NCBI RefSeq assembly: GCF_000760695.4
Contig: NZ_JHEG04000001.1
Coordinates: 877,834 to 941,833, forward strand
Direction of reading: 5' to 3'
Origin: Tolypothrix bouteillei VB521301
Lineage (GTDB): Bacteria; Cyanobacteriota; Cyanobacteriia; Cyanobacteriales; Nostocaceae
DNA length: 64,000 nucleotides
The notes under the pieces are model-generated. The model made no database searches. It saw only the letters and a list, made by a program, of their open reading frames with translations, and was not told the origin of the DNA. Of the stretch, positions 7,439-28,462 are shown piece by piece (positions within the stretch are counted from its first letter, which is position 1; every line of letters starts with the position of its first letter). The translations under genes were made by a program, and so were the position numbers.

Positions 7439-7810
7439 ATGTCACAAGAAACAGTCGTTCAATTTTTTGATGCTGCATTTCAGGATCAAATCATACAGGG
7501 ACAATTGAATTATGCTTTTGCTGCGATCGCACCAGAAGCCCTGATCCAAATTGCTGGCGAGAATGGTTATAGTTTTACAGCTGGAGAATTACAAGCGGTT
7601 TTAGAACAACAGGCGGAATTGTCTGATGAACAGTTAAATTCCGTGGCTGGAGGTAGAGCGGCATATTTTGTCCGTGAAGGCGGTCCTATCTTTGCACAAA
7701 AGCAGTCCTACGATTCTCCGATGCGCGATGAATTAGGTGACGAAGAGGTTGATTTTGCCACGAATTCCAATACCTCTGCTGTGGAAGCCTTTCGCTCACT
7801 TACAGATTGA
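7439..7810 (+). CDS. Nif11-family RiPP precursor peptide
   Basis: 123 residues. Residues 1-72 are a Nif11-type leader: MSQETVVQFFDAAFQDQ at the start, an acidic helical body, and ELSDEQLNSVAGG at the end, a classic double-glycine cleavage site. The core after GG is 51 residues. It begins RAAYFVREGGPIFAQKQ, has no Cys, and contains acidic stretches, several aromatic residues (Y, F, F, Y, F, F) and one further GG. I chose the ATG at 7439 because the reading upstream of it does not belong to the leader family. A radical SAM enzyme and oxygenases follow on the same strand, and a C39-peptidase ABC exporter lies 19 kb away. The lack of Cys rules out lanthionine or sactionine rings, so radical C-C/C-X cross-links, epimerisation or hydroxylation are more likely. 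Confidence 0.85.
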   Translation: MSQETVVQFFDAAFQDQIIQGQLNYAFAAIAPEALIQIAGENGYSFTAGELQAVLEQQAELSDEQLNSVAGGRAAYFVREGGPIFAQKQSYDSPMRDELGDEEVDFATNSNTSAVEAFRSLTD

Positions 7811-7825
7811 TCGGTAACCATACTC

Positions 7826-7890
7826 TTGAGCTTGGTTGATGGGGAGATTTGATAAATGCTGAGATCTTCCCAATCCATCAAGCTGAGTGA
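7826..7890 (+). terminator. Imperfect hairpin after the precursor gene, possible attenuator
   Basis: AGCTTGGTTGATGGGGAGAT pairs imperfectly with GATCTTCCCAATCCATCAAG across a loop of about 15 nt. It has no clear U-run. A partial terminator between precursor and modification enzymes is common in RiPP operons, where it gives excess precursor. Confidence 0.5.
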
Positions 7891-8073
7891 AGCCTATAAG
7901 ATTTTTCTGAAAGACATAAAATCATACCAATTTGAACAAAGAATGCGATAGATAGTTGGACTAAAGCAAGCCCAGAAAAGGCTTTCTCAATTTAAAATCT
8001 CAAATCCAAAATGGTATCAGCGTTTAACTCATAACAATCAGTACTATTTATTAAGTTTTTCTTGGAAGAATTT

Positions 8074-9261
8074 ATGACATCTGGCGAGAAAAGAAAAGTT
8101 CAATTTGTCATTAAAAGTTCTAAGTTTTGCAATCTTCGCTGTCGTTACTGCTATGAATACGCGGAGTTAGGCAATCGTGAAGCGATCGCACCAGAGCAGT
8201 TAGATCGGATGTATGCTCATATTGCCAGTTATTACAGTCGCCTCGATCGCCCGGTAGAGATCCAGTTTATTTGGCATGGTGGTGAACCTCTTTTACAACA
8301 TCCAGACTATTACTGGCGAACTTTTGACCGTCAGCAACAAATTTTTGGAGAACTGGCTGATTCCGTTACAAATACTGTTCAGACTAATTTGACTGTACTG
8401 AACAAACACCAGATTCATTTGTTGCGGGAAGGATTTGATGGTGTAGGAGTTTCTATAGATTTATTTGGGGGTCTGCGGGTTAATCAAACAAACGTAGATT
8501 CTTTAGACAGAGTTTTAGCAAATATGGATTGTTTGCGCTCTGAAAAAGTGCGTTTTGGATGTATCACGGTTTTAACTCAGTTGAATTTACCTTATTTGGA
8601 AGAAATTTATAAATTTTATAACAAAATAAAAATACCATTTCGAGTTTTACCACTCTTTAATGGAGCATTTGATGGACAACATCAAGGATATGAAATCAGC
8701 CCTAATGAGGTTTTAATCGCTTATTGTACCTTGTTCGATCTGTGGTTGGAAAGTAAAAAACCAGTCATTGTTAGACCAATTATTGATTATATTAAACAGG
8801 TAATTCAATACTATACTCCTAATACAAAACCAAATTTCTATAATAAAAGAGAATGGGAATCTATTTATTTGGTCAATATCAATGGTGACATCTATAGTTA
8901 TGCAGATGCTTATAACATTGACTTTTGTCATGGCAATGTGTTTGCAACGCCTATGGAAAATATCATTCTTAGCTCAGGACATCAAAAAGCTATAGCAGCA
9001 GCAGAAAAACGCATGGCGTCTGCATGTCATTCATGTAAATATTTTGGCAGTTGTAGTGGTTATCCCGTTGCAGAAGAAAGTGTAATTCACAATCAAATGG
9101 ATGAAGTAGGTCACGCCCACTGCACGAAAGAAAAAGGAATTTTGCAGTATATCGAGAAACGTTTAAAAGAAACTGGAATCATTAATCCAATAACACGCCA
9201 AGTCAATATCAATCAAGATTATATTTCTAAACATATCTTGGGTTTGGATATTTCCGTATGA
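8074..9261 (+). CDS. Radical SAM/SPASM peptide-modifying enzyme
   Basis: 395 residues from the ATG at 8074, preceded by GGAAGAA. The radical SAM cluster is C19-x3-C23-x2-C26 in KFCNLRCRYCYEY, followed by the SAM-binding WHGGEP motif near residue 69. The C-terminal SPASM/Twitch region carries CHSCKYFGSCSGYP plus an earlier Cys in DFCHGNVF and a later one near the end, enough for auxiliary Fe-S clusters. The usual first SPASM cysteine after 'GDIY' is Ser/Tyr here (GDIYSYAD). Such enzymes install cross-links, epimers or other changes on ribosomal peptides. The gene sits 260 bp behind the Nif11 precursor, so the precursor is the probable substrate. The reaction cannot be named from sequence. Confidence 0.85.
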   Translation: MTSGEKRKVQFVIKSSKFCNLRCRYCYEYAELGNREAIAPEQLDRMYAHIASYYSRLDRPVEIQFIWHGGEPLLQHPDYYWRTFDRQQQIFGELADSVTNTVQTNLTVLNKHQIHLLREGFDGVGVSIDLFGGLRVNQTNVDSLDRVLANMDCLRSEKVRFGCITVLTQLNLPYLEEIYKFYNKIKIPFRVLPLFNGAFDGQHQGYEISPNEVLIAYCTLFDLWLESKKPVIVRPIIDYIKQVIQYYTPNTKPNFYNKREWESIYLVNINGDIYSYADAYNIDFCHGNVFATPMENIILSSGHQKAIAAAEKRMASACHSCKYFGSCSGYPVAEESVIHNQMDEVGHAHCTKEKGILQYIEKRLKETGIINPITRQVNINQDYISKHILGLDISV

Positions 9262-9312
9262 TTTTGTGGCAATGGAAATCGACTAGCTTATTAATTGATT
9301 TGAGAGGAGACT

Positions 9313-10209
9313 ATGTTAGCCCAAAGTAAATTGATATGCGTACAAGAAGGAACCAAGGTTGTTTTGGATACTAATGTAGTTAGCCAAAGCCCCAGAATCT
9401 GGCTGAGTTCGGGGACGACACGGGAAATTCAACCCTTACCAGAACATATCAAATATCGCCCTGATTCGTTCGTACCCAAAGAACCATGGAAAGAACCGAA
9501 CCCAACAGAATATCACCGTCTTGGTATTAATGAACCGCTCTCCCACCTTAGTTCTTGGGATCTGGGATCGTATATTGGTGTTTGTCGCTTTCCAGATGAG
9601 ATTTTAGCACCATTGGAAGTCATACTTGAAGAGTTAAACACGAGAACTAAAACACTTCAATACTATCCACCTGCTAATACGCACCCAGAATATCAGAGTG
9701 CAATGACCAAAATCATCAATTATTTATCCTATTATTGTCTGTCGCATGAGCCACCAAAACTACTGGGTCTGCAAGTGACATTACCCGGATTGCGAACACT
9801 CACAATGGAGAACGCCGATTATTTTGTAGGAATGCACCTTGATAGTTGGGATCGAGCACCACTCAGACGCAGGCATAAATCCAGAAATCGGATCTGTATT
9901 AACTTGGGACGAGAAGAGCGCTTCTTTTTATTTATTAACCTCCCACTTATGCAGATGTTCGAGGCTCTAGGCTTTTCTGACGACGAAGTTTATAAGCATT
10001 ATCGAGGGACAACCGTAGGCGATGAGTTTATGAAAAAATACCCCGATTATCCGGTCGTTAAATTGAAAGTAGCACCGAGAGAAGCGTATATTGCTCCGAC
10101 AGATAACTTAATCCATGATGCTTCTTCTGTAGGTAAGCAATATCCTGACATTACGTTGTCTTTTATTGGGTATTTTGGCATTCCATTTGGTCAAAATCAA
10201 GAGCATTAA
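9313..10209 (+). CDS. Unrecognised RiPP-cluster protein, possibly a metal-dependent oxygenase
   Basis: 298 residues, RBS GAGGAG 6 bp before the ATG. I do not recognise the family. Features visible: a Pro-rich N-terminal part (PKEPWKEPNPTEYHRLG), the segment YFVGMHLDSWDRAP with an H175-x-D177 pair, a basic patch (LRRRHKSRNR), and NLIHDASS with H268 close to the end followed by YPDITLSFIGYFG. An HxD pair with a distal His about 90 residues later in a mostly beta-strand context is the spacing of Fe(II)/2-oxoglutarate oxygenases; the usual 2OG-binding Arg after the distal His is not obvious. The gene lies tightly between the radical SAM gene (51 bp) and a JmjC gene (41 bp), so it belongs to the same operon. 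Function is a hypothesis. Confidence 0.6.
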   Translation: MLAQSKLICVQEGTKVVLDTNVVSQSPRIWLSSGTTREIQPLPEHIKYRPDSFVPKEPWKEPNPTEYHRLGINEPLSHLSSWDLGSYIGVCRFPDEILAPLEVILEELNTRTKTLQYYPPANTHPEYQSAMTKIINYLSYYCLSHEPPKLLGLQVTLPGLRTLTMENADYFVGMHLDSWDRAPLRRRHKSRNRICINLGREERFFLFINLPLMQMFEALGFSDDEVYKHYRGTTVGDEFMKKYPDYPVVKLKVAPREAYIAPTDNLIHDASSVGKQYPDITLSFIGYFGIPFGQNQEH

Positions 10210-10250
10210 TTTACAAAACAACACAGCTTTCCTGTAGAGAATTGCAAGCA

Positions 10251-11447
10251 ATGTCTGAAATAGAATTCGATTTTCAAAAACTGATTCACCCCCTCGACAC
10301 GGATATCTTTTTGAAAAACTATTGGGAGCAGCGATCGCTCTTTCTTGTTCGAGGAAAAGCAGATTATTATGCCAATCTTTTTTCAACAGAGTACATAGAC
10401 GATCTCATTCGCTTTACCGACCTCAAATTTTCTGACTGTAGAGTGTTTAAGACTAAAGAAGGAGTATCCGTTGAACCCTATACAAAGATAGGACCAGATT
10501 ATGCAAATTCCTATTCAGCAAATCAACTTTACGATGCTTATCACCAAGGGAACACATTCTGTATTCAGAAAATTCAAGATCGCTGTAAGCCAGTTGCTAC
10601 TTTTTGTCGGAATTTAGAACAATTTCTCAATCATCCTGTAAATATTAACCTATACTTAACACCTAAAGGTGCTCAAGGATTTCCACCGCACTATGATACA
10701 CACGACGTTTTTGTACTTCAGATTGCGGGATCGAAACACTGGCAAATTTATGAATATTTATCGGATTTGCCCCTCGTTACCAGAGGTTATGCAGTCGATC
10801 CGAAAAACTTAGACACGCCAACCCATAATGTTTGTTTGCAGGCGGGTGACTTATTGTATATTCCCCGTGGTTGTGTTCATGAGGCAATGACCTCAGACAG
10901 CTCCTCATTACATCTGACAGTGGGAATTTGTGTCTTTGAGTGGGCAACTCTCATTCAGGAAGCGATTTTATCTATCGCCGAACAGAACGTTCATTTCCGC
11001 AAAGCACTACCAGTAGGCTTTATCCATCGGAGCGAAGCTATGGCATCGATGAAAAATCAATTAGCAGAACTTTTGCAAGTCCTTGCTGATAAGGTCAACC
11101 ACGAAGACGCTATAGAACGGTTAACCAAACGTTTCATTGGAGGGATGTCTCCACTCCCTGATGGACATTTTATCAGTTTGGATGCAGTTAATGAAATCGA
11201 TCCCAATACTACTGTTGCTAAGCGAAAGGGAATGATTTGTCATATCACCAGAAAAACGGATTCAGTAACCATTCAATTCCCAGGAGGAACCGTTGAGGGG
11301 CCGCAGTCCATTGAGCCAGCGCTTCGCTTTATCACCAACTCAGAACAATTTCTCGTCAAAGACCTTCCAGGTATCCTCAGCAGTCATAGCAAAGTAGTTC
11401 TGGTGCGACGTTTGGTTAAAGAAGGACTGTTAATGATTCAACGCTAA
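10251..11447 (+). CDS. JmjC/cupin-4 family Fe(II)/2OG-type hydroxylase
   Basis: 398 residues from the ATG at 10251. The fold matches the cupin-4/JmjC ribosomal-oxygenase group: an N-terminal IHPLDTDIFLKNYWEQRSLF segment, then the metal triad H147-x-D149 (PPHYDTHDVFVLQI) and distal H210 (YIPRGCVHEA), with the KHW strand between them. The C-terminal part (about residues 265-398) holds a helical dimerisation/winged-helix-like region ending VRRLVKEGLLMI. Relatives hydroxylate Arg, His or other side chains of proteins. Its place in the operon suggests it hydroxylates the Nif11 core peptide; that is inference. A near-duplicate follows. Confidence 0.8.
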   Translation: MSEIEFDFQKLIHPLDTDIFLKNYWEQRSLFLVRGKADYYANLFSTEYIDDLIRFTDLKFSDCRVFKTKEGVSVEPYTKIGPDYANSYSANQLYDAYHQGNTFCIQKIQDRCKPVATFCRNLEQFLNHPVNINLYLTPKGAQGFPPHYDTHDVFVLQIAGSKHWQIYEYLSDLPLVTRGYAVDPKNLDTPTHNVCLQAGDLLYIPRGCVHEAMTSDSSSLHLTVGICVFEWATLIQEAILSIAEQNVHFRKALPVGFIHRSEAMASMKNQLAELLQVLADKVNHEDAIERLTKRFIGGMSPLPDGHFISLDAVNEIDPNTTVAKRKGMICHITRKTDSVTIQFPGGTVEGPQSIEPALRFITNSEQFLVKDLPGILSSHSKVVLVRRLVKEGLLMIQR

Positions 11448-11480
11448 TCCCAAGCACCAAAAGTCTGAATGTAACAAACA

Positions 11481-12380
11481 ATGTCTAACCCAGATTTTGA
11501 TTTTGAGAAATTAATTCAACCTATCGATTCACAAACCTTTTTAACCAATTATTGGGAGCAAAAACCACTTGTTTTGATGAGAGAAGATGCAAATTACTAT
11601 GTTAGCCTTCTCTCAATGAAAGAGATTGACAATATCATATGTTTCGCTAATTTGAGATCGGGCGATATTGAGACTGATTCTTTAAATCGCTCTAGTGATT
11701 TTAAATATTCTGATTCCCATACAGTTCCTAGTATTAATCACCTTTACCAAGCTTATTCTCAAGGTCATACTTTACTTATACACGAGCTTCAGTACCACTG
11801 GAAAGCAATTGCTGCTTTCTGCTGTCGTCTGGAACAATTTCTCAATCATCCTGTAAATGCAAACCTGTATTTAACACCTAAGAATTCACAAGCCTATCCA
11901 GCGCACTTTGATTTAAACGACGTTTTCATTCTTCAATTAGAAGGTGCTAAACTCTGGCGCATTTACGATTCCTTTTTAGATTTACCCACTGCTGCTCACA
12001 TCCAAGCAATACCAAAAAAAATACTAGACGCATCGCCACGGGAAGTTTATCTCCAAGCTGGTGATTTATTGTATCTCCCTCGTGGTTTTGTTCATGAAGT
12101 GCTTGCTTTAGAAAGTTCCTCGTTGCACCTTACAATTGCTATAGATGTCTTTAAATGGAGTCACCTCATAACTGAAATGCTTGCATCTGCCACGGAGCAA
12201 AATGTCCGCTTTCGTAAAGCACTACCAGTCGGCTTCCTTCATCGGAGCGAAGCAATGGAGTTGATGAAAACTCAATTAGCAGAACTCTTGCAAGTTTTGG
12301 CTGCTAATGTCGATCGCGAAGATGCTGTGGAACAGCTGACCAAACGTTTCATTAAAGAAAAATTTCCATTGGCGATGTGA
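11481..12380 (+). CDS. JmjC/cupin-4 oxygenase paralogue, C-terminally truncated
   Basis: 299 residues, clearly a duplicate of the preceding gene (shared LEQFLNHPVN, NLYLTPK, RKALPVGF and HRSEAM blocks). The metal triad is intact: H142-x-D144 (PAHFDLNDVF) and H205 (LPRGFVHEV). It ends about 100 residues early: at IKEKFPLAM the reading shifts by one base relative to its sister (SPLPDGHF) and stops, and a dispersed repeat begins 9 bp later at 12389. So the gene has lost the C-terminal domain; the catalytic cupin could still fold. Either a functional short form or an early pseudogene. Confidence 0.75.
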   Translation: MSNPDFDFEKLIQPIDSQTFLTNYWEQKPLVLMREDANYYVSLLSMKEIDNIICFANLRSGDIETDSLNRSSDFKYSDSHTVPSINHLYQAYSQGHTLLIHELQYHWKAIAAFCCRLEQFLNHPVNANLYLTPKNSQAYPAHFDLNDVFILQLEGAKLWRIYDSFLDLPTAAHIQAIPKKILDASPREVYLQAGDLLYLPRGFVHEVLALESSSLHLTIAIDVFKWSHLITEMLASATEQNVRFRKALPVGFLHRSEAMELMKTQLAELLQVLAANVDREDAVEQLTKRFIKEKFPLAM

Positions 12381-12388
12381 ATTCTCTA

Positions 12389-12506
12389 GCAATCCTATTT
12401 GAGATCTCAACAAGAGAGATAAGAGAGACAAGGGAGACAAGGAGGACAAGGAGGACAAGGAGGACAAGGAAGAGGTGTTTGTAAATCATGTAGGACTGCT
12501 ATATCA
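12389..12506. mobile_element. Dispersed MITE-like repeat with tandem AAGGAGGAC units
   Basis: It begins TAGCAATCCTATTTGAGATC and ends near ATGTAGGACTGCTATAT, related to the terminal repeats of the element at 7162. The interior holds about seven tandem copies of a 9-10-mer of the type GACAAGGAG. It starts 9 bp after the shortened JmjC gene, which makes it the probable cause of that truncation. Confidence 0.7.
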
Positions 12507-13093
12507 GTTATTGAGGTCAATCTATCCAGAATTCTTGCCTTCACGGCTACTCACAGATTGGGATTTTTCGTGAGTTTGCTCAACCGCGTAATACTAGAGC
12601 AAATACTTCCCACTTCCTTACGGCTCGTCTACAGAAGGTGCTGATACTGCAATTATTCTTCAGTCATTTCCTCTTCATCTTCCTCCTTAATCTCTTCCCA
12701 ATCACCCCGTGCCAAGCCACGCTTGTGTTGCACCAGAATAAATTCGCCTTACCTATTCCTCAAATATTCCCCCGTCCCACTTAAAAATCTAGGTTATGAC
12801 CAACAATGTAACAAAAAACACTTGTAGAGAAGTCTCTTTACCATTAAGTTTTGAAAATGATTATATATTGGTAGGAAATTGGGACTTTTTTAGTTGAAAT
12901 CTTTATTTGACTTTCTAGAGTTCTTACTGTCCAGTGGACTGTTAGCCGCAAGAGTACTGCGCCCCAGCGCGAAGCTTGGGTGTAGGGAATTGCAGTTGAG
13001 CGAGTGCTTTTTCTAGAAGATATAATGGTTCGCGAATACTCTTCGTAAAATGAAAAGAATGAACAGTAAAAATCAACCCTACCAGTAGCTTTT
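12507..13093. other. Intergenic region with a possible gene remnant
   Basis: About 590 bp without a complete gene. On the minus strand, 12653-12750 reads about 33 codons, ending in an acidic tail (EEIKEEDEEEMTEE) and a stop after GEFILVQHKRGLARGDW, with a stop directly upstream; this looks like the C-terminal scrap of a lost gene. The plus strand just after the repeat (from 12506) might hold decayed codons of the shortened JmjC gene (ISVIEVN versus ISLDAVN in its sister). Neither is certain. Confidence 0.35.
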
Positions 13094-14019: not shown

Positions 14020-17000
14020 TTATAGTCCATTTCCAATTAAAATAAAAGATGCCCAATAATAGGGGTGTTTAAATTGACTGTTACTTCCTGTTAATAATTC
14101 TAATTGTGCGTTGCGTAAAGCTTCGGCTTTGCTCAATTTCCCAGCTTTTAATGTTGTATAAAATGCATTCATTAAGGCTTGCGTACCACCATCAGAAACA
14201 GACCACAATGAAGCAATAGAGGCTTTGGCACCTGTTAATTGAATTTGATATCCCAAACCTAGAATTTCCTGACCGTTACCTAATTGTTTGCCCAAACCAG
14301 TTTGACAGGCACTTAAAACGACTAAATCAACATTAGGTAAAGACCAATTTTCTATATCTTTAAGGGTGACACGTGTACCATCCCCAAACAAAATAAATGA
14401 ATCTTCAGGATTACCGCTCACTAGCATGCCATGCGTTGCTAAATGCACGATTTTGTAATCATTCATCTGTGGGATGGCAACTTGGGTGTTAAATTCTTTA
14501 TCTAAAAGAATCTTTGTGTTTTGAATTGTCTTAGCTAAATTTTCAACTTCAGCTTTGGCAAATTGCAACCCGCTCAATGTTTCTTTTCTTTCCCCTACAG
14601 CTACTTGATAATCACCCTTGGTAAAAGCAGCGGCTAAAGTGGTTAAAGATGCTGGAGGTTTATTGTTTAATTTAGTTAAACTTGCAGCCGTAATATTGTT
14701 GACAATAAAACGCTCAACCAACCAATTTTTTCCGTCGTATAATGCTGCTAAAGGTATATATCTCAGTTTGCTATCCGGAGCATAGATAATTGCTTTTGCA
14801 TCAGCTTGTTTGATGTCATTTTCAATAGGTTTAATGAGCCAATTATATAATTGTGTGGCAGAATTTTTGCTATCTTTATAAGGAGCTACTAGGGCTTGGC
14901 GAAATTCAGTAATAACCTGATTTAATTCAGATGCTTTGACTGGTACCGGACGGTGAATTGGGGGTGAATCCGCAGTTACTAAAACTAACTCTAATCTATC
15001 TTCTAAAACTAAGGGATATAATAAGACTGTTTTTTGATTTAACTGGCGTAAATTATCTCGCAGTGAGTTAAGTTGACGCAAACTGAGATTTTCCTGTCCG
15101 GAGTTAGTCGATAATTGTTGCACTAATGCTACTACAGACGGATTTTTGGTGAATTTATTAAATTCAGCCGTAATTGCCTGTTCGAGTTTGACTAATTCAG
15201 CGATGCGTTTTTCTTGAGCAGATGTCCGCGAAGTTTGGGGAATTTTTCTGAGATTGGTGAGTTCTTGTCCCAGTGCGATCGCTTTGTCTTGAATGACACT
15301 ATATTTTTGTGTAATATCTTGTTCTTGGGGCTTGAGTGGTAAATTTTGGGATACTGGAGTTTCTATATTTGTTCCTCTTTGTCCGCTATTAGCAACTGCT
15401 GTTTTCTTAGGTGTTATGCGCTCAATTCCGATAAAATCACTCACTTCTTGGATTTTGAGTAAATCCAGAACTTGTTGCGCTTCTGCGGAACGATTTTGTT
15501 TAAGCAATAAATCGGCGAGGCGGCGGTATCTTTCTGCTACCGTTTCTGTATAAGATTGTTGAATAGCAGTTGGCATAACGCGCAAGTTTTGCCGAATTTC
15601 CTCAGTTAAATTAACTGATTTTTTGTAAAATGCAATTGCTAGCTGTGGTTGATTTTGTCCGGATAAAGTATCTCCTAAAAATTTCATTGTTGTGGCTTCA
15701 CTGGCTCGATCGCTCACTTCGCGGTGTATAGCTAAAGCTTGCTGATACAATTCTTCCGCTTTGGCGTATTGATTTTGCTGTTGGTAAATTTGTCCTAGAT
15801 GGCTCATTGTCACACCTTCCCCGGTGCGATCGCCCACTTCTCGATAAATAGCTAAGGCTTGCTGGTTTAATTCAATTGCTTGCTGATATTTGCTTAAATT
15901 GCTATGAACACGCGCAATATTATTAAGAGTGGCAGCAACCCCTAGTTTGTAATTATTTTCCTTGTAGATATTTAAAGCTTGTTGATATATCTTTAAAGCT
16001 TGGTCGTATTTACCTAAGTTTGCATATATTTGTCCAATATTATTAAGATTGATTGCTCTCCCTTGGAATTGAAAAGAGTCTTTACCAAAAGCATCACCAA
16101 CAATAGCACGACTGACAAATTGTTGAGATGCTTGGGAGTTTTGACCGAGATAATCGTAAAGTAATTTAATATCTTGTTTGTTAACTTCTTCAGAATTAGT
16201 ACTACTCAGTCTGTTATAAATATTTGCAGATTGCTCTGCGAGTTCTAAAGACTTCTGAGACTGACCCAAGCTAAAATAAGCCCCCGCGAGATTATTCATA
16301 GTTGCTGCTTGCGTACCTAAATAATTTGAGCAGCATTCTTGCAAACTGTTTAAAGCTTGTTGGTAAGAATTTACAGCTTGAGCATAGTTTCCTAAGTTAA
16401 CATAAACTACACCAATATTATTTAGAGTTTGAATGCTGCCAATCTTATCATCACTGGTTTTTTGGAGAGCTAAACTTTGTTGATAAAAATCTAAAGCTTT
16501 GGCATACTGTCCCGTGCGAAAATAAACGCTACCCAGATCGCCAAGCATAATTGTTTCGCTTGTAGCATAGCTAGTATCTTTTGGGTTAGCGGCTTTTAGT
16601 TCTCGAAGAATCGCTAAACCATTTTGATACGCTTCTATAGCTTGAGGATACCGTCCCAAATTGACGTACACTTCACCTAGATAGGAAACAGGTATCCATT
16701 CATTTTGGCGATCGCGTGTTTTTCTGCGAATATCTAAAGAGGATTGAAAATATTCCAACGCTTGAGGATATTTACCTTGACGGAGATATACATATCCAAT
16801 GTTCGTAAGGGAGTTAGCTTCCCCGGCTTTCGCACCGTATTTTTGGAAAATAGTTAAAGCCTGTTGAGATTGCGTTAACGCTGTTTGTAATTCATTCAAA
16901 CCAACCAAATCCTTATAAATTAGACCTCCAGCGTTATTATTTAACATAACAGCTTCCGCGATCTGTTCTTCAGGTGTTGGAGTCGGTGCTTGTGCTAGAG

Positions 17001-17052
17001 ATGGGGAAGCTAAAGCTAGGATCAGTGTTAAGGAAATAATAGGAAGTTGCAT
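14020..17052 (-). CDS. Secreted TPR-CHAT protein (caspase-like protease domain)
   Basis: 1010 residues with a cleavable signal peptide (LTLILALASPSLAQA). Residues about 35-480 hold around ten tetratricopeptide repeats of the kinesin-light-chain type (A-L-x-x-Y-Q-Q-A-L-x-I pattern). A linker of coiled-coil character follows, and residues about 700-1010 are a CHAT domain with the caspase-like dyad: His in IVHLATHGML (near residue 870) and Cys in VVLSACQTGLG (near 915). The signal peptide puts it outside the cytoplasm. TPR-CHAT proteins are very common in filamentous cyanobacteria, often next to CHASE2 and DUF928 genes as here; most are uncharacterised. It is transcribed towards the Uma2 gene and away from the exporter. 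Confidence 0.85.
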   Translation of the reverse strand: MQLPIISLTLILALASPSLAQAPTPTPEEQIAEAVMLNNNAGGLIYKDLVGLNELQTALTQSQQALTIFQKYGAKAGEANSLTNIGYVYLRQGKYPQALEYFQSSLDIRRKTRDRQNEWIPVSYLGEVYVNLGRYPQAIEAYQNGLAILRELKAANPKDTSYATSETIMLGDLGSVYFRTGQYAKALDFYQQSLALQKTSDDKIGSIQTLNNIGVVYVNLGNYAQAVNSYQQALNSLQECCSNYLGTQAATMNNLAGAYFSLGQSQKSLELAEQSANIYNRLSSTNSEEVNKQDIKLLYDYLGQNSQASQQFVSRAIVGDAFGKDSFQFQGRAINLNNIGQIYANLGKYDQALKIYQQALNIYKENNYKLGVAATLNNIARVHSNLSKYQQAIELNQQALAIYREVGDRTGEGVTMSHLGQIYQQQNQYAKAEELYQQALAIHREVSDRASEATTMKFLGDTLSGQNQPQLAIAFYKKSVNLTEEIRQNLRVMPTAIQQSYTETVAERYRRLADLLLKQNRSAEAQQVLDLLKIQEVSDFIGIERITPKKTAVANSGQRGTNIETPVSQNLPLKPQEQDITQKYSVIQDKAIALGQELTNLRKIPQTSRTSAQEKRIAELVKLEQAITAEFNKFTKNPSVVALVQQLSTNSGQENLSLRQLNSLRDNLRQLNQKTVLLYPLVLEDRLELVLVTADSPPIHRPVPVKASELNQVITEFRQALVAPYKDSKNSATQLYNWLIKPIENDIKQADAKAIIYAPDSKLRYIPLAALYDGKNWLVERFIVNNITAASLTKLNNKPPASLTTLAAAFTKGDYQVAVGERKETLSGLQFAKAEVENLAKTIQNTKILLDKEFNTQVAIPQMNDYKIVHLATHGMLVSGNPEDSFILFGDGTRVTLKDIENWSLPNVDLVVLSACQTGLGKQLGNGQEILGLGYQIQLTGAKASIASLWSVSDGGTQALMNAFYTTLKAGKLSKAEALRNAQLELLTGSNSQFKHPYYWASFILIGNGL

Positions 17053-17298: not shown

Positions 17299-17357
17299 TC
17301 AACTTCGTTCCCTTGTCTCCCTTGTCTCCCTTGTCCGGATCTCAAAAAGGATTGCTA
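17294..17357 (-). repeat. Reverse copy of the AGCAATCC / GGGAGACAA repeat
   Basis: Read on the minus strand it begins TGTAGCAATCCTTTTTGAGA and continues with tandem GACAAGGGA units, the same family as 12389 and 51345. It abuts the MITE at 17128 and overlaps the last bases of the ABC transporter gene. Confidence 0.6.
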
Positions 17358-20006
17358 CATCTGCCGTGCCATTAAATTTGCAAATAATCCTTCTTGATTG
17401 ACTAATTCCTCAAATTTACCTTGTTGAACAACTCGCCCAGCTTCAATGACATAAATTCGGTCGGCGTTCTGGATAGTGCTGAGGCGATGGGCAATAACGA
17501 TGCGTGTTACTCCCAAATTGTCTAAGCTGGTACTAACGATAGCTTGGGTGCGATTATCTAAGGCACTGGTCGCTTCATCAAAAATAAGAATTTTAGGTTT
17601 TAATACTAAAGCACGGGCAATTAATAGTCGCTGTCTTTGTCCGCCAGACAGGTTTGTCCCTCCTTCGGAAATAACCGTGTGCATTTCCATTGGCATTGAC
17701 TGAATATCTTCAGCAAAACCAGCCATGCGTGCTGCTTCCCAAGCTTCTTCCATTGTCACCAATGCGCCACTAGAAATATTTTCAAAAATCGAGGCGCTAT
17801 TAATCCGCCCGTTTTGCAGCACTACACCAATTTGCCGCCGTACTGCAGATATATCTAGCCCTGATAAATCCTGCCCATCGTAGTAAATCGTCCCATCTTT
17901 GGGCGTTTCAAATCCCAACAACAGCCTGATAAGTGTGGATTTACCACTACCAGAAGGTCCTACTAAAGCAATAAATTCTCCTGGTTGTGCCTGAATGGTG
18001 ACATCAGCTAAATTCAAGGGACCGTCTTCTCGGTAACGGAACGTTACGCGATCGACTTTAACTTTACCCGTTAATCGTCCCGGATCGCTTTTGCTAAGGT
18101 CAATTTCCGATTGAGCTTGAAAGATGGGCTTTGCCCGTTCCCAGAAAATGCTGATATCCAAAATGCTGACTATAGTATTACTTAATTGCGTTGTTCCAAC
18201 AATAAATATGGCAAAGGCTGAGTTAAATGCTAAAAATTTACCTGTAGATAATCCTGCATCCCCTGCAGACGGGGCTTGAGTTATAAACGTGACCGCCAAC
18301 CAAAAGATAATTATTGAACTGACAGTTGGCATAATGGTATTAAATATAGCTAAGATATCTTCAATGAATTCTGTACTCAATTTGAGTTTTAGCTGTTGAC
18401 TGTACTTTTTTGCCCAATAAGCAAAGGCGCGGTCTTCTGCACTGGTGACACGGAGTTTAGACACGCCAGCAACCATCTGTACTGTAAAGCCAAAAATATC
18501 TCCCTCGATTTCTTCTAAAGGACGCAACTTTTGACGGTTCAGTACGCCGGAGACGGTGGTAAAGACGATTGTCACCAGTGCTACTCCTACTACCACTAAA
18601 GCCAATTGAGAACTGTAAACAAACAACAATCCCAAATTGAGTAAGGAAAAGACACTTGTAAAAATTGTGCGTAGTACTGTGTCACTGAGTTTCTGACGAA
18701 TCTGAGTGATAACGGAAACACGAGATTGTAAATCCCCAATAGAATATTCACGAAAGAAAGATACTCGCAAATTTAATAATCTATCCCAGAGGGCTGCTTG
18801 GGAGTCTATACTGGCTTTAGTATCCAGTCTTAGGGTGGAAAAACCTTGAGCAATTTGAAAAATTATTGTGCCGATACTGGCGGCAAAAAGACCCAAGGCG
18901 ATTTGTACTAATAAACCTCGGTCTGCGTCGGGAATAGCAGAATCAATGAGAACGGCAGTTGCTAAGGGAGTTAACATCCCCAGTAATGTGGCGATTGTAC
19001 CTGTCAGGAGAATGACGAGCACTTCTTTGATTTGTCCTTGGAAAGCAAATACTAACAGATCGATAGCAGTGAGATGTTTGTCGGGTAGGGGACGATAAAA
19101 CACATAGGCAAAGGGAGCTAGTGTTTGGGCAGTATCGTTATTTACAGGAATGCGAGTATGATTTGGGTCAAAAATTTCGTATTTTCTTGCACCCACCGGT
19201 AGCACTGCTACAGGACGGTTATCTTGCTGTGTATATGCCAAGAGGGGTCCAGTATCTTTTTGCCACCATTTATCGTTCAGTAAAACCCGCCTGATACGAA
19301 TGCGCGATGCACGAGCGATCGCTTCTAGGGGTTCTTTAATCCGATTCATATCTTCGGAACGTGCAGGGGGCAAAATCTTTATTCCTAATGCTTTGCCTAC
19401 CGCACCTGTAGCAATTAAAAGAGGTGTCTCTGATTGCAAAAATTCCGCTTGTTTTGGCTTGAGGACTGCTGCCAAATTACCTAAAGCACCAACTTTTGCT
19501 TGATGATTAAGTTGTTCTCGTGCTTGGAATTGCTGCCATTTTGCGGTTAACTCCTCCTGTTCTATTTGCATTAAAATTTGGCAGAAATCGCTATGGAGTT
19601 CGTTGAGAGCCACTTGGATAGTGTCCCAACTATTCAGTTTTTCAGGATAGGAAAACACGGGGGAAATCACGGCGCGATCGCCTGCACAACTACAGATATG
19701 TTTCCTCCAAATCTGCACTAACTCGAGAAACTTTTCTGGCTCGCATTTCTCCTCACTCTCTACAGTCAGTTGCCATAATAAACTATCTTCCATAGATACC
19801 GCTAAAATCTTATGCGTCTTAGCAGCTATCCCAAACAATGCTTCCCCCGCACGGACAGTAAACAGATAGCGGCGGACCCCCTCAAATCCTTGGTGAATGG
19901 GAATGGCAAACAGAGCGATCGCACCTGATTCAACCTGCCAAAATGTTTGAGTATTGTCGAATACTAAGGACTGATTACCTGTCAATAGTAATTTGGAATC
20001 ATTCAT
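17355..20006 (-). CDS. NHLP-type peptide export ABC transporter, permease/ATPase subunit without peptidase
   Basis: 883 residues. An N-terminal sensor-like beta domain (FWQVESGAIALFAIPI...VRAGEALFG) and a long linker come first. Six membrane helices follow (about residues 340-640), then a nucleotide-binding domain: Walker A GPSGSGKST, signature LSGGQRQR, Walker B ILIFDEATSALD and H-loop IAHRLST. There is no C39 peptidase. This layout is the second ABC subunit of the NHLP (nitrile hydratase/Nif11 leader peptide) bacteriocin export system. The partner peptidase-ABC gene and HlyD subunit are encoded divergently at 24.7-28.5 kb. It probably helps move processed RiPP peptides across the inner membrane. 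Confidence 0.85.
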   Translation of the reverse strand: MNDSKLLLTGNQSLVFDNTQTFWQVESGAIALFAIPIHQGFEGVRRYLFTVRAGEALFGIAAKTHKILAVSMEDSLLWQLTVESEEKCEPEKFLELVQIWRKHICSCAGDRAVISPVFSYPEKLNSWDTIQVALNELHSDFCQILMQIEQEELTAKWQQFQAREQLNHQAKVGALGNLAAVLKPKQAEFLQSETPLLIATGAVGKALGIKILPPARSEDMNRIKEPLEAIARASRIRIRRVLLNDKWWQKDTGPLLAYTQQDNRPVAVLPVGARKYEIFDPNHTRIPVNNDTAQTLAPFAYVFYRPLPDKHLTAIDLLVFAFQGQIKEVLVILLTGTIATLLGMLTPLATAVLIDSAIPDADRGLLVQIALGLFAASIGTIIFQIAQGFSTLRLDTKASIDSQAALWDRLLNLRVSFFREYSIGDLQSRVSVITQIRQKLSDTVLRTIFTSVFSLLNLGLLFVYSSQLALVVVGVALVTIVFTTVSGVLNRQKLRPLEEIEGDIFGFTVQMVAGVSKLRVTSAEDRAFAYWAKKYSQQLKLKLSTEFIEDILAIFNTIMPTVSSIIIFWLAVTFITQAPSAGDAGLSTGKFLAFNSAFAIFIVGTTQLSNTIVSILDISIFWERAKPIFQAQSEIDLSKSDPGRLTGKVKVDRVTFRYREDGPLNLADVTIQAQPGEFIALVGPSGSGKSTLIRLLLGFETPKDGTIYYDGQDLSGLDISAVRRQIGVVLQNGRINSASIFENISSGALVTMEEAWEAARMAGFAEDIQSMPMEMHTVISEGGTNLSGGQRQRLLIARALVLKPKILIFDEATSALDNRTQAIVSTSLDNLGVTRIVIAHRLSTIQNADRIYVIEAGRVVQQGKFEELVNQEGLFANLMARQM

Positions 20007-22393: not shown

Positions 22394-22449
22394 ACAGCAT
22401 TTGATTTTGGGAGTGGTTTCTTTCAGGTATAAATTGCTGTTGTATCTTG

Positions 22450-22535
22450 GTGAAGGAATTGCGAGCGCGAAGCGGCTGCAAAGCAGCATCGCCCTTGGCG
22501 CAAGCGAAGCTATCGCGCTGTAGGAGCAGAGGCGC
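22450..22535. repeat. GC-rich extragenic repeat upstream of the cyclase
   Basis: The segment GCGAGCGCGAAGCGGCTGCA, followed by AAGCAGCATCGCCCTTGGCG and AGCGAAGCTATCGCGC, contains nested palindromes such as CGGCTGCAAAGCAGC and TAGCTTCGCTTGCG on the minus strand. It is more GC-rich than its surroundings and typical of the short mobile palindromes of filamentous cyanobacteria. Confidence 0.55.
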
Positions 22536-23570: not shown

Positions 23571-24608
23571 ATGAGCGGACAATTGCTAACTCATTTTCCT
23601 AATTTTGCGGTTTTTAAGGATCGCGATATTGCTTGGATGATAAATATCGGTAAATATACGGAATACCGTACTGGTGAAATTCTGCTTCGAGAAGGTCAAG
23701 AAATTATTGACACAGTGGAAATTCTATTAGAAGGAGCATTGAGTATTGGTGTTTCTCCTACAGGAAATATAGAAGATGCTGTTGAAATTGAGCGCGTAAC
23801 AGCTGGCGAAGTTGTAGAATTTCTATCTTTTATAGATAATCGTCCTCCATCTAGCACTTGTACCGCCTTAGAACCCTCACGGGTATTATCGTTACCCAGA
23901 CATTTATTAATTAAAAAATTGGAGAACGATACAGAATTTGCTGCCCGTTTTTATCAAATGTTATCTATTTTTCTGTCGAAGCAGTTGCGAAAATTAACTG
24001 ATTTTCTTATTAAAAACAAAGTAGTACCGGGAGAACCGTTACGCAAAGTTTTATTTGTCTTTGCTATCTTGAATGATGCTGATATTGATTGGATGATTGC
24101 TCGAGGCGTTAGAATGAAAGTTCATTCTGGGACGGTGCTTATAGAGGAAGGTCAACCGCCAGAAGCCTTATATATATTGTTAGATGGAAAATTAGGTATT
24201 TTTGTAACCAGCCAACAGACTGAATCGGGACAAAAAGAAATTGCTACATCAGTCAAGGGTGAAATTTTGGGAGAAATGTCCTTTGTAGAAATGACAACCG
24301 CCTCCGCTACAGTCAAAGCAGCAGAATCTGCTGTATTATTGGCACTACCAAAGCACATCCTCATGGAAAAATTAAAACAAGATACAGGATTTACAGCCAG
24401 GTTTTATCGAGCGATCGCGGTAGTGTTAGCGGATAGAATTCGCGATCGGTTATTCCGCCGGGGATTTGGCAAACTAGCCTACCAACTAGACCCAGTTTTA
24501 ACAGAAGATATTGAAGTTGAAGATGAACTTGACTTAGATACCCTAGACAATACCGCCCTAGCAGGTGCTAGATTTGACTGGATGATTAAACGCCTCAATA
24601 GGCAATAA
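23571..24608 (+). CDS. Protein with two cyclic-nucleotide-binding-fold domains, exporter-associated
   Basis: 345 residues with a duplicated CNB (CRP-like) beta-roll: residues about 5-135 (FKDRDIAWMINIGKYTEYRTGEILLREGQ) and about 160-295 (LNDADIDWMIARGVRMKVHSGTVLIEEGQPPEALYILLDG). Neither phosphate-binding cassette shows the Arg that contacts the cyclic phosphate: the second reads GEILGEMSFVEMTTASATV. So real cAMP binding is doubtful, even though a CHASE2 cyclase is encoded close by. No helix-turn-helix is present. It heads an apparent operon with the HlyD and C39-ABC genes (49- and 73-bp gaps). Similar genes accompany NHLP exporters, where they may gate transport. Confidence 0.75.
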   Translation: MSGQLLTHFPNFAVFKDRDIAWMINIGKYTEYRTGEILLREGQEIIDTVEILLEGALSIGVSPTGNIEDAVEIERVTAGEVVEFLSFIDNRPPSSTCTALEPSRVLSLPRHLLIKKLENDTEFAARFYQMLSIFLSKQLRKLTDFLIKNKVVPGEPLRKVLFVFAILNDADIDWMIARGVRMKVHSGTVLIEEGQPPEALYILLDGKLGIFVTSQQTESGQKEIATSVKGEILGEMSFVEMTTASATVKAAESAVLLALPKHILMEKLKQDTGFTARFYRAIAVVLADRIRDRLFRRGFGKLAYQLDPVLTEDIEVEDELDLDTLDNTALAGARFDWMIKRLNRQ

Positions 24609-24657: not shown

Positions 24658-26097
24658 ATGGCTGAAAAAGACAGTCTATTTCGCAAGGAATCACTGGAGC
24701 GTTTATCTTCTCCAGAAAGATTGGATCGATTAATGCAGTTGGTCAACCCTCTCGATTGGCTACCCTTGACGGCGTTAGGTAGTTTTATCCTCATTGGGTT
24801 GGTTTGGAGTGTTTTTGGACGTATTCCCATCACTGTTTCAGGGAAAGGAGTGCTTATTCAACCCTATCAAGTCATCACTTTTGAGTCTCCCATTTCAGGA
24901 CAATTAAAAAGTCTAAATATCAAACCTGGACAGTGTATTGAAAAAGGACATATCCTAGCTACAATCGATCCCACCGATCTTAAGCAACAGTTGCAATTGC
25001 AACGCACGAAAATCGCCGAATTACAAGCACAAAGCCAGTCTTCTATTTTACTTCAGCAACAGCATACAATGAAGGAAAAAGAAGCGATCGCATCTGCAAG
25101 GGCTAGTTATATTCAACGGTTGCGGGATACCCAAACACTCACACCTGCGTTTTATGAAAAAGGTTTAAATGCGATCCGCGAACAGCGTATAAGTCTACAA
25201 CAACGCCTCAAAGATGCTCGGGGTCTTGTTCCCGTACTGAAACACAGATTTCAAGAGCGTCAGCAACTTTTAGATGTAGGAGCAATTGCCAAAGATACTT
25301 TATTACAAGCAGAGCAAGAATACAAACAAGGACGCCAAACTGTCTATGATATCCAAGCGCAACTTAAGCAATTAGATGTAGAAGAAACAGAAGCCCAACA
25401 GAGATACTTACAAAATCTGAGTTCTGTAGGAGAACTGCAAACGCAATTGAAAGACTTAGAAACTAGGAGTAAACGAATTGACCAGGAAAACGTAGAAAAC
25501 CTTAATAAAAACTTTAATCAAATTCAAGAAGTCAATCGAGCGATCGCTCAACTAGAAAAACAAATATTAGATAATAGCCAAATTGTCAGTCTTAATAGTG
25601 GTTGTGTCTTGGAAACCTCTGCTTTCGTTGGTCAAGTTGTCAGTCCCGCGACTCCCATTGCATCTGTGAATCTTCGACAAAATAACACCCCATTGATAGC
25701 CATTTCCTACTTTAGCATCAAAGATGGCAAGCAGATTCAACCAGGAATGACTATGCAAATTACCCCCGACTCGGTGAAAAGAGAACGCTTTGGCGGTATT
25801 GTTGCTAAAATCACTTCGGTTCCTCCCTTACCTGTCACTAAAGAAGGTGCAAATTCTGCGATCGGCAATCCCGATTTAGCAGCCAAAATTTTACCAACTG
25901 GTGGCGGAGATATGGAAGTGCGAGCAGAGATGGTACTTGAGCCGTCTACCTTTAGTGGCTATCGTTGGTCTTCCTCCCAAGGACCAAAATTAAAAATTTC
26001 TGCGGGAACGACTACCACCGTGCGGGTAAAAGTAGCAGAACAAGCACCGATCGCTTATCTCTTACCAATTATACGTGAATTTACTGGCATTGACTAA
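24658..26097 (+). CDS. NHLP bacteriocin secretion HlyD-like periplasmic adaptor
   Basis: 479 residues. One membrane helix (about residues 38-56, FILIGLVWSVFG) follows a cytoplasmic N-terminus. Then come a biotinyl-lipoyl half (GKGVLIQPYQVITFESPISGQ), a long coiled-coil hairpin (about 110-295, Gln/Glu-rich), the second lipoyl half (LNSGCVLETSAFVGQVVSP) and a beta-barrel segment. This is the NHLP-type HlyD family protein, which links the ABC exporter to the outer envelope. It lies between the CNB protein and the C39 ABC transporter, all on the same strand. Confidence 0.85.
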   Translation: MAEKDSLFRKESLERLSSPERLDRLMQLVNPLDWLPLTALGSFILIGLVWSVFGRIPITVSGKGVLIQPYQVITFESPISGQLKSLNIKPGQCIEKGHILATIDPTDLKQQLQLQRTKIAELQAQSQSSILLQQQHTMKEKEAIASARASYIQRLRDTQTLTPAFYEKGLNAIREQRISLQQRLKDARGLVPVLKHRFQERQQLLDVGAIAKDTLLQAEQEYKQGRQTVYDIQAQLKQLDVEETEAQQRYLQNLSSVGELQTQLKDLETRSKRIDQENVENLNKNFNQIQEVNRAIAQLEKQILDNSQIVSLNSGCVLETSAFVGQVVSPATPIASVNLRQNNTPLIAISYFSIKDGKQIQPGMTMQITPDSVKRERFGGIVAKITSVPPLPVTKEGANSAIGNPDLAAKILPTGGGDMEVRAEMVLEPSTFSGYRWSSSQGPKLKISAGTTTTVRVKVAEQAPIAYLLPIIREFTGID

Positions 26098-26170: not shown

Positions 26171-28462
26171 ATGCACTTAGTTTTATCCAAATACTTATCA
26201 AACTTAAATCCCTTCCGTAAAAGAAAGCCACCGTTAGAATTAGAAACAGCAAAAAGTCAAAGTTCCTGTCGCGTCAAAACTCCGAGCCTCTTGCAAATGG
26301 AAGCCGTGGAGTGCGGTGCAGCTGCTTTGGGAATTATTTTGGCTTACTACCATAAAATTGTTCCTCTAGCAGAATTACGGCAAAATTGCGGCGTTTCCCG
26401 TGATGGTAGTAAAGCTTCCAATATTATTAAAGCTGCCAGAAACTACGGAATGCAAGCTAAAGGTTTTAAAAAGCAGTTGGCACAATTAAAAATACTCCGC
26501 CCGCCGTATATTGTCTTTTGGAATTTCAATCACTTTTTAGTAGTTGAAGGATTTAAAAAAGATTGGGTTTATCTTAACGATCCAGCTACAGGTCCAAGGC
26601 GAATTTCTTTACAGGAATTTGATGAAGCTTATACGGGGGTAGTTCTCGTGATGGAACCAGGAACAGAATTTCAAAAAGGAGGTCGCAAGCCTAGCTTAAT
26701 CGGCTCATTACTCGCTCGTTTGCAGAATTCTTGGGGACCTATTCTTTATTGTTTGCTAACGGGATTTTTTTTAGTGATTCCAGGGTTTGTCCTACCAGTT
26801 TTCAACCAGGTATTTGTAGATAATATCTTAGTAGAAAATCGTACAGACTGGCTTCGTCCCCTGATTTTGGGGATGACAATTACTATGGTTATTCAGGCAT
26901 GGTTGACATTACTCCAAAGACGCTTTCTCCGGAAACTGAATATAAAATTATCGGTAGAAATGTCAGGGCAATTTATTCATCATATTTTGCAATTGCCAGT
27001 AGGATTTTATGCTCAAAGATTTGCCGGAGAAATTAGCAGTCGGATTAAGATTAATACTAAAGTAGCTGAAGTGTTATCGGGTCAATTAGCTAGAACTGTT
27101 ATTGATAGTGTGATGCTGGTATTTTATGCCACAGTCATGTTAGCCTACGATCGTATGCTAACTGCGATCGCTATCTGTTTTGCTGCCATTAATATATTGA
27201 CATTGCAAGCAGTTTCACGACAACGTACAGATATTTATACGCGAACCATCCAAGACAGAGGCAAAGTAGCAGGTACTGAAATCGCCGGTCTCCAGAGCAT
27301 GGAAACTCTGAAAGCATCAGCATTAGAATCTGATTTTTTTGCCCGTTGGTCTGGCTATTACACCAAATTTATCAACGGTCAGCAAGAACTAAGCATTACC
27401 AATCAATTCTTAGGTCTTTTACCTACATTTTTAACTGGTTTGAGCTCTCTAGCAATTTTAGCGATTGGGGGGCTACGGGTGATGGATGGACACTTAAGTA
27501 TTGGAATGTTAGTTGCTTTTCAAAGTTTAATGACAAGCTTTCTCACTCCAGTAAACTCTCTCATCAATTTTGGCAGTACCCTTCAAGAACTAGAAGGTGA
27601 CTTGAACCGCTTAGATGATGTGTTGCAAAACCCTATCGATCCAGAATTAGACAGTCAAAATTTACTTATTTCGCCAAAACCGCTACAGTATGCTTCATAC
27701 TGCCAACTTCAGGGATATGTAGAATTAAAAAATGTCAGCTTTGGATATTCGCGAACCGATCCTCCCCTCATTCAAGATTTAAGTTTTCAGATCAAACCAG
27801 GAGAAAGGGTCGCCTTCGTTGGGGGTAGTGGTTCTGGTAAATCCACAGTTGCCAAATTAGTCGCAGGGCTTTATCAACCTTGGTCCGGTCAAATTCTCTT
27901 TGATGGTATTCCCAGAGAACAAATTCCCAGAGCAATACTATCTAATTCTCTGGCAATGGTAGAACAGGAGATTTTTTTGTATGCTGGAACTGTCCGCGAG
28001 AATTTGACCTTGTGGGATGACACAGTATCTAATTCTCAACTAGTGCGAGCATGCATTGATGCGGCAATTCATGAAGTGATTCTAGCCTTACCTGGAGGAT
28101 ATGAAGGAAATCTTTTAGAAGGTGCGGCTAATTTTAGTGGCGGACAACGCCAGCGTTTAGAAATTGCTCGTGCATTAGTCAACGACCCCACAATTTTGAT
28201 CGTAGATGAAGCCACCAGCGCCTTGGATGCAGAAACAGAAAAAATTATTGACCGAAATATGCGCTATCGTGGTTGTTCTAGCCTGATTGTGGCTCACCGC
28301 TTGAGTACCATCCGTGACTGTGATGAAATCATTGTTCTCGAACAAGGCAAAGTCGTACAAAGAGGTACCCACCAACAGATGTCACAACTTGACGGTCCTT
28401 ATGCGCGGTTAATACAGTCAGAACCAACGAACAGCTGCTGCGGTTATGACTCGTTTATTTGA
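26171..28462 (+). CDS. NHLP export ABC transporter with C39 peptidase domain
   Basis: 763 residues. The N-terminal C39 double-glycine peptidase is complete: C48 in QMEAVECGAAALG, H121 in NFNHFLVVEG and D137 in YLNDPATGPR. Six membrane helices follow (about 185-465), then an ATPase domain with Walker A GGSGSGKST, signature FSGGQRQR, Walker B ILIVDEATSALD and H-loop VAHRLST. Such transporters cut leader peptides after Gly-Gly and export the core. The Nif11 precursor at 7439 ends its leader in AGG, so it is the natural candidate substrate in this window. The N-terminus (MHLVLSKYLSNLNPFRKRK) is a short basic extension. Confidence 0.9.
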   Translation: MHLVLSKYLSNLNPFRKRKPPLELETAKSQSSCRVKTPSLLQMEAVECGAAALGIILAYYHKIVPLAELRQNCGVSRDGSKASNIIKAARNYGMQAKGFKKQLAQLKILRPPYIVFWNFNHFLVVEGFKKDWVYLNDPATGPRRISLQEFDEAYTGVVLVMEPGTEFQKGGRKPSLIGSLLARLQNSWGPILYCLLTGFFLVIPGFVLPVFNQVFVDNILVENRTDWLRPLILGMTITMVIQAWLTLLQRRFLRKLNIKLSVEMSGQFIHHILQLPVGFYAQRFAGEISSRIKINTKVAEVLSGQLARTVIDSVMLVFYATVMLAYDRMLTAIAICFAAINILTLQAVSRQRTDIYTRTIQDRGKVAGTEIAGLQSMETLKASALESDFFARWSGYYTKFINGQQELSITNQFLGLLPTFLTGLSSLAILAIGGLRVMDGHLSIGMLVAFQSLMTSFLTPVNSLINFGSTLQELEGDLNRLDDVLQNPIDPELDSQNLLISPKPLQYASYCQLQGYVELKNVSFGYSRTDPPLIQDLSFQIKPGERVAFVGGSGSGKSTVAKLVAGLYQPWSGQILFDGIPREQIPRAILSNSLAMVEQEIFLYAGTVRENLTLWDDTVSNSQLVRACIDAAIHEVILALPGGYEGNLLEGAANFSGGQRQRLEIARALVNDPTILIVDEATSALDAETEKIIDRNMRYRGCSSLIVAHRLSTIRDCDEIIVLEQGKVVQRGTHQQMSQLDGPYARLIQSEPTNSCCGYDSFI

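Follow-up and report, generated by a model that had tools for sequence, protein, structure and literature searches.

The radical S-adenosylmethionine (SAM) enzymes OscB, XncB and MscB make aryl-Cβ bonds between residues i and i+2, OscB forming Trp-Asn/Asp and Phe-Asn three-residue cyclophanes and XncB joining Trp to Arg or Asn (PMC11002830). A cluster for a ribosomally synthesized and post-translationally modified peptide (RiPP), located in a 64,000-nucleotide stretch of the Tolypothrix bouteillei VB521301 genome (the window), resembles these triceptide or GrrM/OscB (TIGR04261) systems in having a SPASM radical SAM enzyme, a small precursor with aromatic-x-Asn/Asp-like core motifs and, as in some GrrM/OscB members, a neighbouring gene for a MicC-like oxygenase. 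Unlike them, its precursor carries a Nif11 leader and lacks Gly-rich repeats, and its radical SAM enzyme scores only 87.2 bits with the GrrM/OscB model (cut-off 310). MicC itself (PDB 9VKM) is homologous to the 298-residue protein of the cluster over nearly its full length, with the same metal-binding residues, but the radical SAM gene beside the window copy belongs to another subfamily. In biphenomycin-type RiPPs a JmjC-type enzyme (BpmG, PbsQ) also serves as side-chain hydroxylase, but the other enzymes at work there, on ortho-Tyr, are an MNIO and a B12 radical SAM enzyme, in place of the SPASM radical SAM and MicC-like enzymes of the window (PMC12257519). The Tvg cluster, for a poly-cyclopropyl peptide, likewise unites a radical SAM and an Fe/2-oxoglutarate (2OG) enzyme (PMC11002830); it differs by its Thr-Val-Gly-Gly repeat precursor and by a 2OG enzyme of family IPR018724. 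With the Nif11/NHLP systems the window shares a GG-ending Nif11 leader and NHLM export genes scoring above cut-off; unlike there, the relatives of its radical SAM enzyme mostly accompany Sec-like leaders. The general recipe, radical cross-linking followed by iron-enzyme oxidation, is known; the present combination of enzymes and the swappable leader look like new variants of it. Among the literature matches listed (subscription journals being mostly outside the search), there was no paper on this enzyme combination and no mention of the MicC oxygenase, its substrate or its pathway.

The five genes of the cluster (Table 1) are open reading frames that follow each other with intergenic gaps of 263, 51, 41 and 33 bp, in agreement with the original prediction, made from the sequence alone, of a single-strand row with short gaps. 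A second genome (G482; G and L numbers designate genomes and loci) has the same row, gene for gene, which is therefore not due to chance: this is a real, recurring RiPP cluster arranged as an operon-like row. We consider it probable that its product is an oxygenated peptide carrying a three-residue cyclophane. The sequences themselves show what the genes are, their metal-binding residues, their recurrence as neighbours, a gene fusion and an enriched core motif; each chemical step is inferred. Once the Nif11-leader precursor is made, the radical SAM/SPASM enzyme would bond an aromatic ring carbon of Phe to the β carbon of residue i+2, with F85-Q87 as the most likely pair and F77-R79 as a possible second one. 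The MicC-like enzyme would then oxidise the cross-linked core, most simply by hydroxylation, the two JmjC enzymes, as an accessory pair, would put further hydroxyl groups on side chains, and an NHLM peptidase/ABC exporter would cleave after the GG and secrete the product. The Phe-(i+2) cross-link and the MicC-like oxidation are proposed because of the association between the two enzymes and the enrichment of a core motif. A cross-linked or epimerised, oxygenated core had been foreseen: cross-linking and Fe(II) oxidation are retained in our best reading, a cyclophane is expected in place of epimerisation, and the oxygenases are now three, the 298-residue one being conserved.

The precursor consists of a leader (residues 1-72, with GG at 71-72) and a core (73-123) without Cys. 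It scores 39.6 bits with PF07862 (cut-off 23.8) and 36.8 with TIGR03798 (cut-off 32.3); the earlier description of a 72-residue Nif11 leader, a GG site and a 51-residue Cys-free core was correct. It is one of four Nif11 matches in its own genome, and its G482 counterpart is 61% identical. Only one of the four F/W residues of the core fits the cyclophane-like motif [F/W]-x-[N/D/Q/E], at F85-A86-Q87 (7691-7699); the second candidate, F77-V78-R79, would suit the Arg variant of the motif. A block such as GPxWVQNQPY can be aligned among several related cores, and a C-terminal SAVxxFxSL-like block (SAVEAFRSL in the window) is present in most, both blocks being common to some Nif11 and some Sec-like precursors. 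A protein-database search with the window core gave three close Nif11 relatives, all keeping FVREGGPPWVQNQ; searches by core alone for further precursors returned only three close relatives each.

When the 16 non-redundant precursors were considered (7 of 23 being left out as near-copies), 41 of 88 F/W residues fitted the motif, against 20.65 (SD 3.87) in shuffled cores, none of 2000 shuffles reaching 41. In each of the three shortest cores (L117, L120a and L120b) all three F residues fit. The core of L016 can be started at an earlier VGG, which includes some leader, or at a later GG; the count is 41/88 either way. Among ten spacings +2 was the most enriched (41, with 0/1000 shuffles as high), and +1, +3, +4, +5, -1, -3 and -4 were unremarkable. 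Some points weigh against the cyclophane, however: spacing -2 gave 35 (0/1000 shuffles) and +6 gave 30 (8/1000), which means that the enrichment is not confined to +2, and the motif was picked after inspecting the sequences. The spacing control lowered our confidence, though very slightly. An apparent tie between Asn/Gln at the third motif position and the presence of the MicC-like gene (10/12 precursors with the gene, 1/11 without; the last conserved motif was scored visually) was dropped, since the label needs just two changes on the tree, which makes the points non-independent, and since L211 has F-A-Q without the gene.

Three overlapping genome samples, 217 from the family, 388 from the class and 388 from the order, yielded 24 radical SAM genes with at least 54% identity; leaving out an incomplete one (G433, 234 aa), 23 genes at 22 loci were kept. 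The MicC-like gene adjoins, or is fused to, 12 of the 23, its presence needing two changes on the radical SAM tree; the JmjC pair accompanies two, those of the window and of G482. By eye, a small precursor-like gene adjoins the radical SAM gene at all 22 loci, with a Nif11 leader at 5 (6 peptides) and a hydrophobic, Sec-like N-terminus at 17. A BLAST search for the Nif11 peptide matched only at the window and at 4 of the 21 fetched loci. Leader type changes once on the radical SAM tree (support 90/99), the Nif11 group lying nearest the outgroup; no direction is assigned to the swap because this outgroup is only distantly related and itself has candidate precursors of Sec-like appearance. The second radical SAM copy of the T. 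bouteillei genome (L060) has a Sec-like precursor and neither oxygenase within 16 kb. Judged from the 17 loci with Sec-like precursors, the Nif11 leader is exchangeable and not essential. The idea of the original prediction that Nif11 plus JmjC defines the system is not supported. That prediction was to be given up should the radical SAM and JmjC genes regularly occur without a Nif11 precursor. They do so in part, at the 17 loci just mentioned and, for JmjC, in other kinds of RiPP cluster (see below). Each of the 22 loci looks RiPP-like.

We tentatively suggest that this radical SAM subfamily and the MicC-like oxygenase form a leader-agnostic module for cross-linking and oxygenation that works behind unrelated leaders of two kinds, either Nif11 (with NHLM export) or Sec-like, and reads the core and the C-terminal SAVxxFxSL block instead of the leader; in the window its product would be a triceptide-like peptide on which three different 2OG enzymes act, the MicC-like one oxidising it directly at the cyclophane. 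If so, the enzymes would be a new subfamily of cyclophane formers, the fusions of G296 (see below) would be natural one-polypeptide cross-linker/oxygenases, and a leader class swapped while core and enzyme were kept would make enzyme recognition directly testable. When genome contigs were scanned with the radical SAM alignment, the best 80 of 212 matches comprised 7 cyanobacterial loci, an alphaproteobacterial fragment (L123, 36% identical) and 72 radical SAM genes only 21-30% identical. Another group of radical SAM genes, with 30-36% identity (L063-L070, L115, L116), lies beside proteins with a hydrophobic N-terminus; in L115 (G054) several such proteins accompany two copies of the radical SAM gene.

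The radical SAM enzyme scores 47.9 bits with PF04055 (cut-off 29.5). C19/C23/C26 and C318/C321/C327/C350 are invariant in 16/16 aligned relatives, which gives it the CX3CX2C motif and the C-terminal auxiliary-cluster Cys of a radical SAM/SPASM peptide maturase. SPASM cysteines had been read earlier as well; the first of the textbook pattern (C285 here) is not conserved among the relatives, and the SPASM Pfam model reaches 13.9 bits, under its cut-off of 21.5. The enzyme misses the cut-off of each of the 25 NCBIfam models listed (of 56 matches): the best are DynA (155.8 versus 450) and the anaerobic sulfatase maturase TIGR03942 (139.7 versus 349.45), and AmcB (92.4/425), YhhB (80.8/445) and DarE (101.8/650) are also unmatched. 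For this reason, we infer cyclophane formation from the motif and from the oxygenase partner held in common with GrrM/OscB.

The 298-residue protein, called unrecognised in the original prediction, is recognisable as a relative of MicC, a solved α-ketoglutarate/Fe oxygenase (E = 2.4e-26; profile E = 1.4e-63), with a homology that spans residues 10-288 and aligns the HxD and the distal His. These three residues, already noticed before, are invariant in all 45 aligned sequences of the 120 relatives listed. The structure prediction then proposed as a check gave a 2OG-oxygenase fold (predicted local distance difference test score, pLDDT, 90) whose neighbours include KdoO (a named hydroxylase), FIH and JMJD5 (which we take to be hydroxylases), the halogenase WelO5 and FtmOx1 (presumably an endoperoxidase). 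Since 9VKM is absent from the best 50 of 1494 Foldseek rows, the link to MicC is one of sequence. A sample of 386 genomes from the phylum contains 10 with a member of this family; in seven of these a radical SAM gene is adjacent, of the window type in G000, G296, G338 and G340 and of the GrrM/OscB type in G191, G111 and G284 (539.5 and 452.7 bits against the TIGR04261 cut-off of 310 for L023 and L024, in G111 and G284, respectively). The closest radical SAM relatives usually have this protein as their partner. In G296 (L016) the two are fused in frame, in two tandem genes. In G129, G354 and G039 no window-like radical SAM gene was found in the stretch read around the MicC-like gene, which adjoins a TPR-sulfotransferase gene and one for a protein ending in CTH repeats. 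Five plasmid records match the 298-residue protein, of which four were read: a grrM gene lies next to the Nostoc copy and next to one copy from Streptomyces, and no annotated radical SAM gene lies near the other Streptomyces copy and one Methylocystis copy. A scan of genome contigs with the protein gave no matches. At L019 (8227-11157), L020 and L021, the MicC-like gene and TPR-sulfotransferase come with a 220-residue protein bearing a C-terminal CTHCTHCTHCTH; neither Pfam nor NCBIfam matches its L019 copy, and the tail is possibly a modified peptide.

Both JmjC_2 enzymes are well above the PF08007 cut-off of 22 (105.9 bits for oxygenase 1, 89.8 for oxygenase 2), and oxygenase 1 matches MINA in the PDB at E = 9.2e-32. 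The complete metal triads ascribed to them from the start are confirmed, HxD...H and the aligned Lys (which presumably binds 2OG) being retained in 12/12 aligned enzymes. Oxygenase 2 lacks about 100 C-terminal residues compared with oxygenase 1, but is not a freshly broken copy, since G482 also has the short form (294 aa). Identity is 53% between the two oxygenases and 72-76% between each of them and its G482 counterpart, with which it groups on the tree; the duplication therefore predates the split between the window and G482. On gene content, the pair is an accessory, because only two of the 23 related radical SAM genes have it. Relatives (E ≤1e-30) occur in 25 of 217 family genomes, including those of the window and G482; in nine of the other 23 the surroundings were read (domain searches covered G486, G474, G387, G415, G417 and two G499 halogenase genes, the rest being assessed by eye), and eight were other RiPP clusters. 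These are YcaO/TfuA clusters with Nif11-like precursors (G499, G486, G467), a TOMM YcaO with nitrile-hydratase-type precursors (G474), two MvdC/D-type ATP-grasp genes (G387) and lasso clusters (G415, G417, G382); around the G534 gene nothing was recognised by eye. JmjC_2 oxygenases would then be a transferable tailoring component shared by several RiPP classes. At L106, L107 and L108, YcaO, TfuA and JmjC accompany a Nif11-like precursor ending in VMCCW, with two tryptophan-halogenase genes near L106, possibly another type of oxygenated RiPP. A JmjC_2 oxygenase is also part of the cyanobacterial lasso-peptide-type clusters L112, L113 and L114.

Could the radical SAM enzyme carry out another peptide reaction, such as an epimerisation or the ether or C-N cross-links of darobactin and dynobactin maturation, with the oxygenases acting on that product? 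The top score of the dynobactin maturase DynA, the scores of DarE and DarW (all under cut-off), the C-C and C-N links formed by DynE (PMC11002830) and the motif enrichment beyond +2 would all suit this. However, the DynA and DarE scores are one third and one sixth of their cut-offs, the most enriched spacing suits i to i+2 cross-links, the MicC-like partner accompanies GrrM/OscB elsewhere, and the Cys-free core excludes thioethers to Cys; we regard such a reaction as unlikely. It is very improbable that the enzyme is a sulfatase-maturase-like protein serving another substrate, with the Nif11 gene as a bystander. A sulfatase maturase is the second NCBIfam match and the nearest solved structure, and the window holds a sulfatase gene, but that gene has its own adjoining FGE-type gene, the maturase score is far from its cut-off, and the precursor-like gene is present at each of the 22 related loci.

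Regarding the oxygenases, the MicC-like and JmjC enzymes might not hydroxylate this peptide but catalyse desaturation or ether or C-N bond formation, or have a different protein as their substrate. Many reactions are compatible with the 2OG fold, as the structural neighbours WelO5 and FtmOx1 illustrate, and in three genomes the MicC-like gene lies by the TPR-sulfotransferase and CTH-repeat genes, with no window-like radical SAM gene found. On the other hand, KdoO, FIH and JMJD5 are among the fold neighbours of the MicC-like protein, and the JmjC/cupin-type BpmG and PbsQ hydroxylate ornithine in a RiPP (PMC12257519), so that we hold these alternatives to be somewhat doubtful and prefer hydroxylation of a cyclophane-bearing core.

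The NHLM genes located 5-16 kb downstream (Table 1) probably complete the cluster, which would then reach 28462. TIGR03794, TIGR03796 and TIGR03797 are all above cut-off, as expected of an NHLM export system. The link between exporter and peptide is drawn from G482, where the exporter directly adjoins the JmjC genes; the window C39 transporter is the best of 14 matches in its own genome and is 82% identical to that of G482. Exporters of the same type lie near the radical SAM genes of L117 (67% identical) and L016 (59%), and a homologue of the second transporter (53% identical) is found near the G296 cluster. Homologues of the cyclic-nucleotide-binding protein adjoin the exporter in L117, L016 and L051; in the window this protein might respond to the CHASE2-nucleotide cyclase.

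Table 1. Genes of the cluster, of its surroundings in the window and of the G296 fusion locus
Feature	Position	Strand	Description
Precursor peptide, Nif11 leader	7439..7810	+	123 aa; PF07862/TIGR03798 above cut-off
Radical SAM/SPASM enzyme, unnamed subfamily	8074..9261	+	395 aa; PF04055; invariant CX3CX2C and four further Cys
MicC-like Fe(II)/2OG oxygenase	9313..10209	+	298 aa; homology to PDB 9VKM; H175-x-D177...H268
JmjC_2 (NO66/MINA-like) oxygenase 1	10251..11447	+	398 aa; PF08007, PDB MINA; H147-x-D149...H210, K162
JmjC_2 oxygenase 2	11481..12380	+	299 aa; PF08007; H142-x-D144...H205, K157
TPR-CHAT protein	14020-17052		between JmjC genes and exporter
NHLM-type export ABC transporter 2	17355..20006	-	TIGR03797 1008.8 bits, cut-off 709.4
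CHASE2-nucleotide cyclase	20141-22489		between JmjC genes and exporter
Cyclic-nucleotide-binding protein accompanying exporter	23571..24608	+	PF00027
NHLM HlyD-like export adaptor	24658..26097	+	TIGR03794 332.1 bits, cut-off 156.2
NHLM peptidase (C39)/ABC exporter	26171..28462	+	TIGR03796 1154.4 bits, cut-off 853.3
Sulfatase	30298-31671		window
FGE-type sulfatase-modifying enzyme	31684-32682		directly after sulfatase gene
Tandem radical SAM-MicC-like fusion genes, L016 (G296)	8672-10888 and 10885-13044 (of L016)	-	738 and 719 aa; beside Nif11 precursor and NHLM-type exporter

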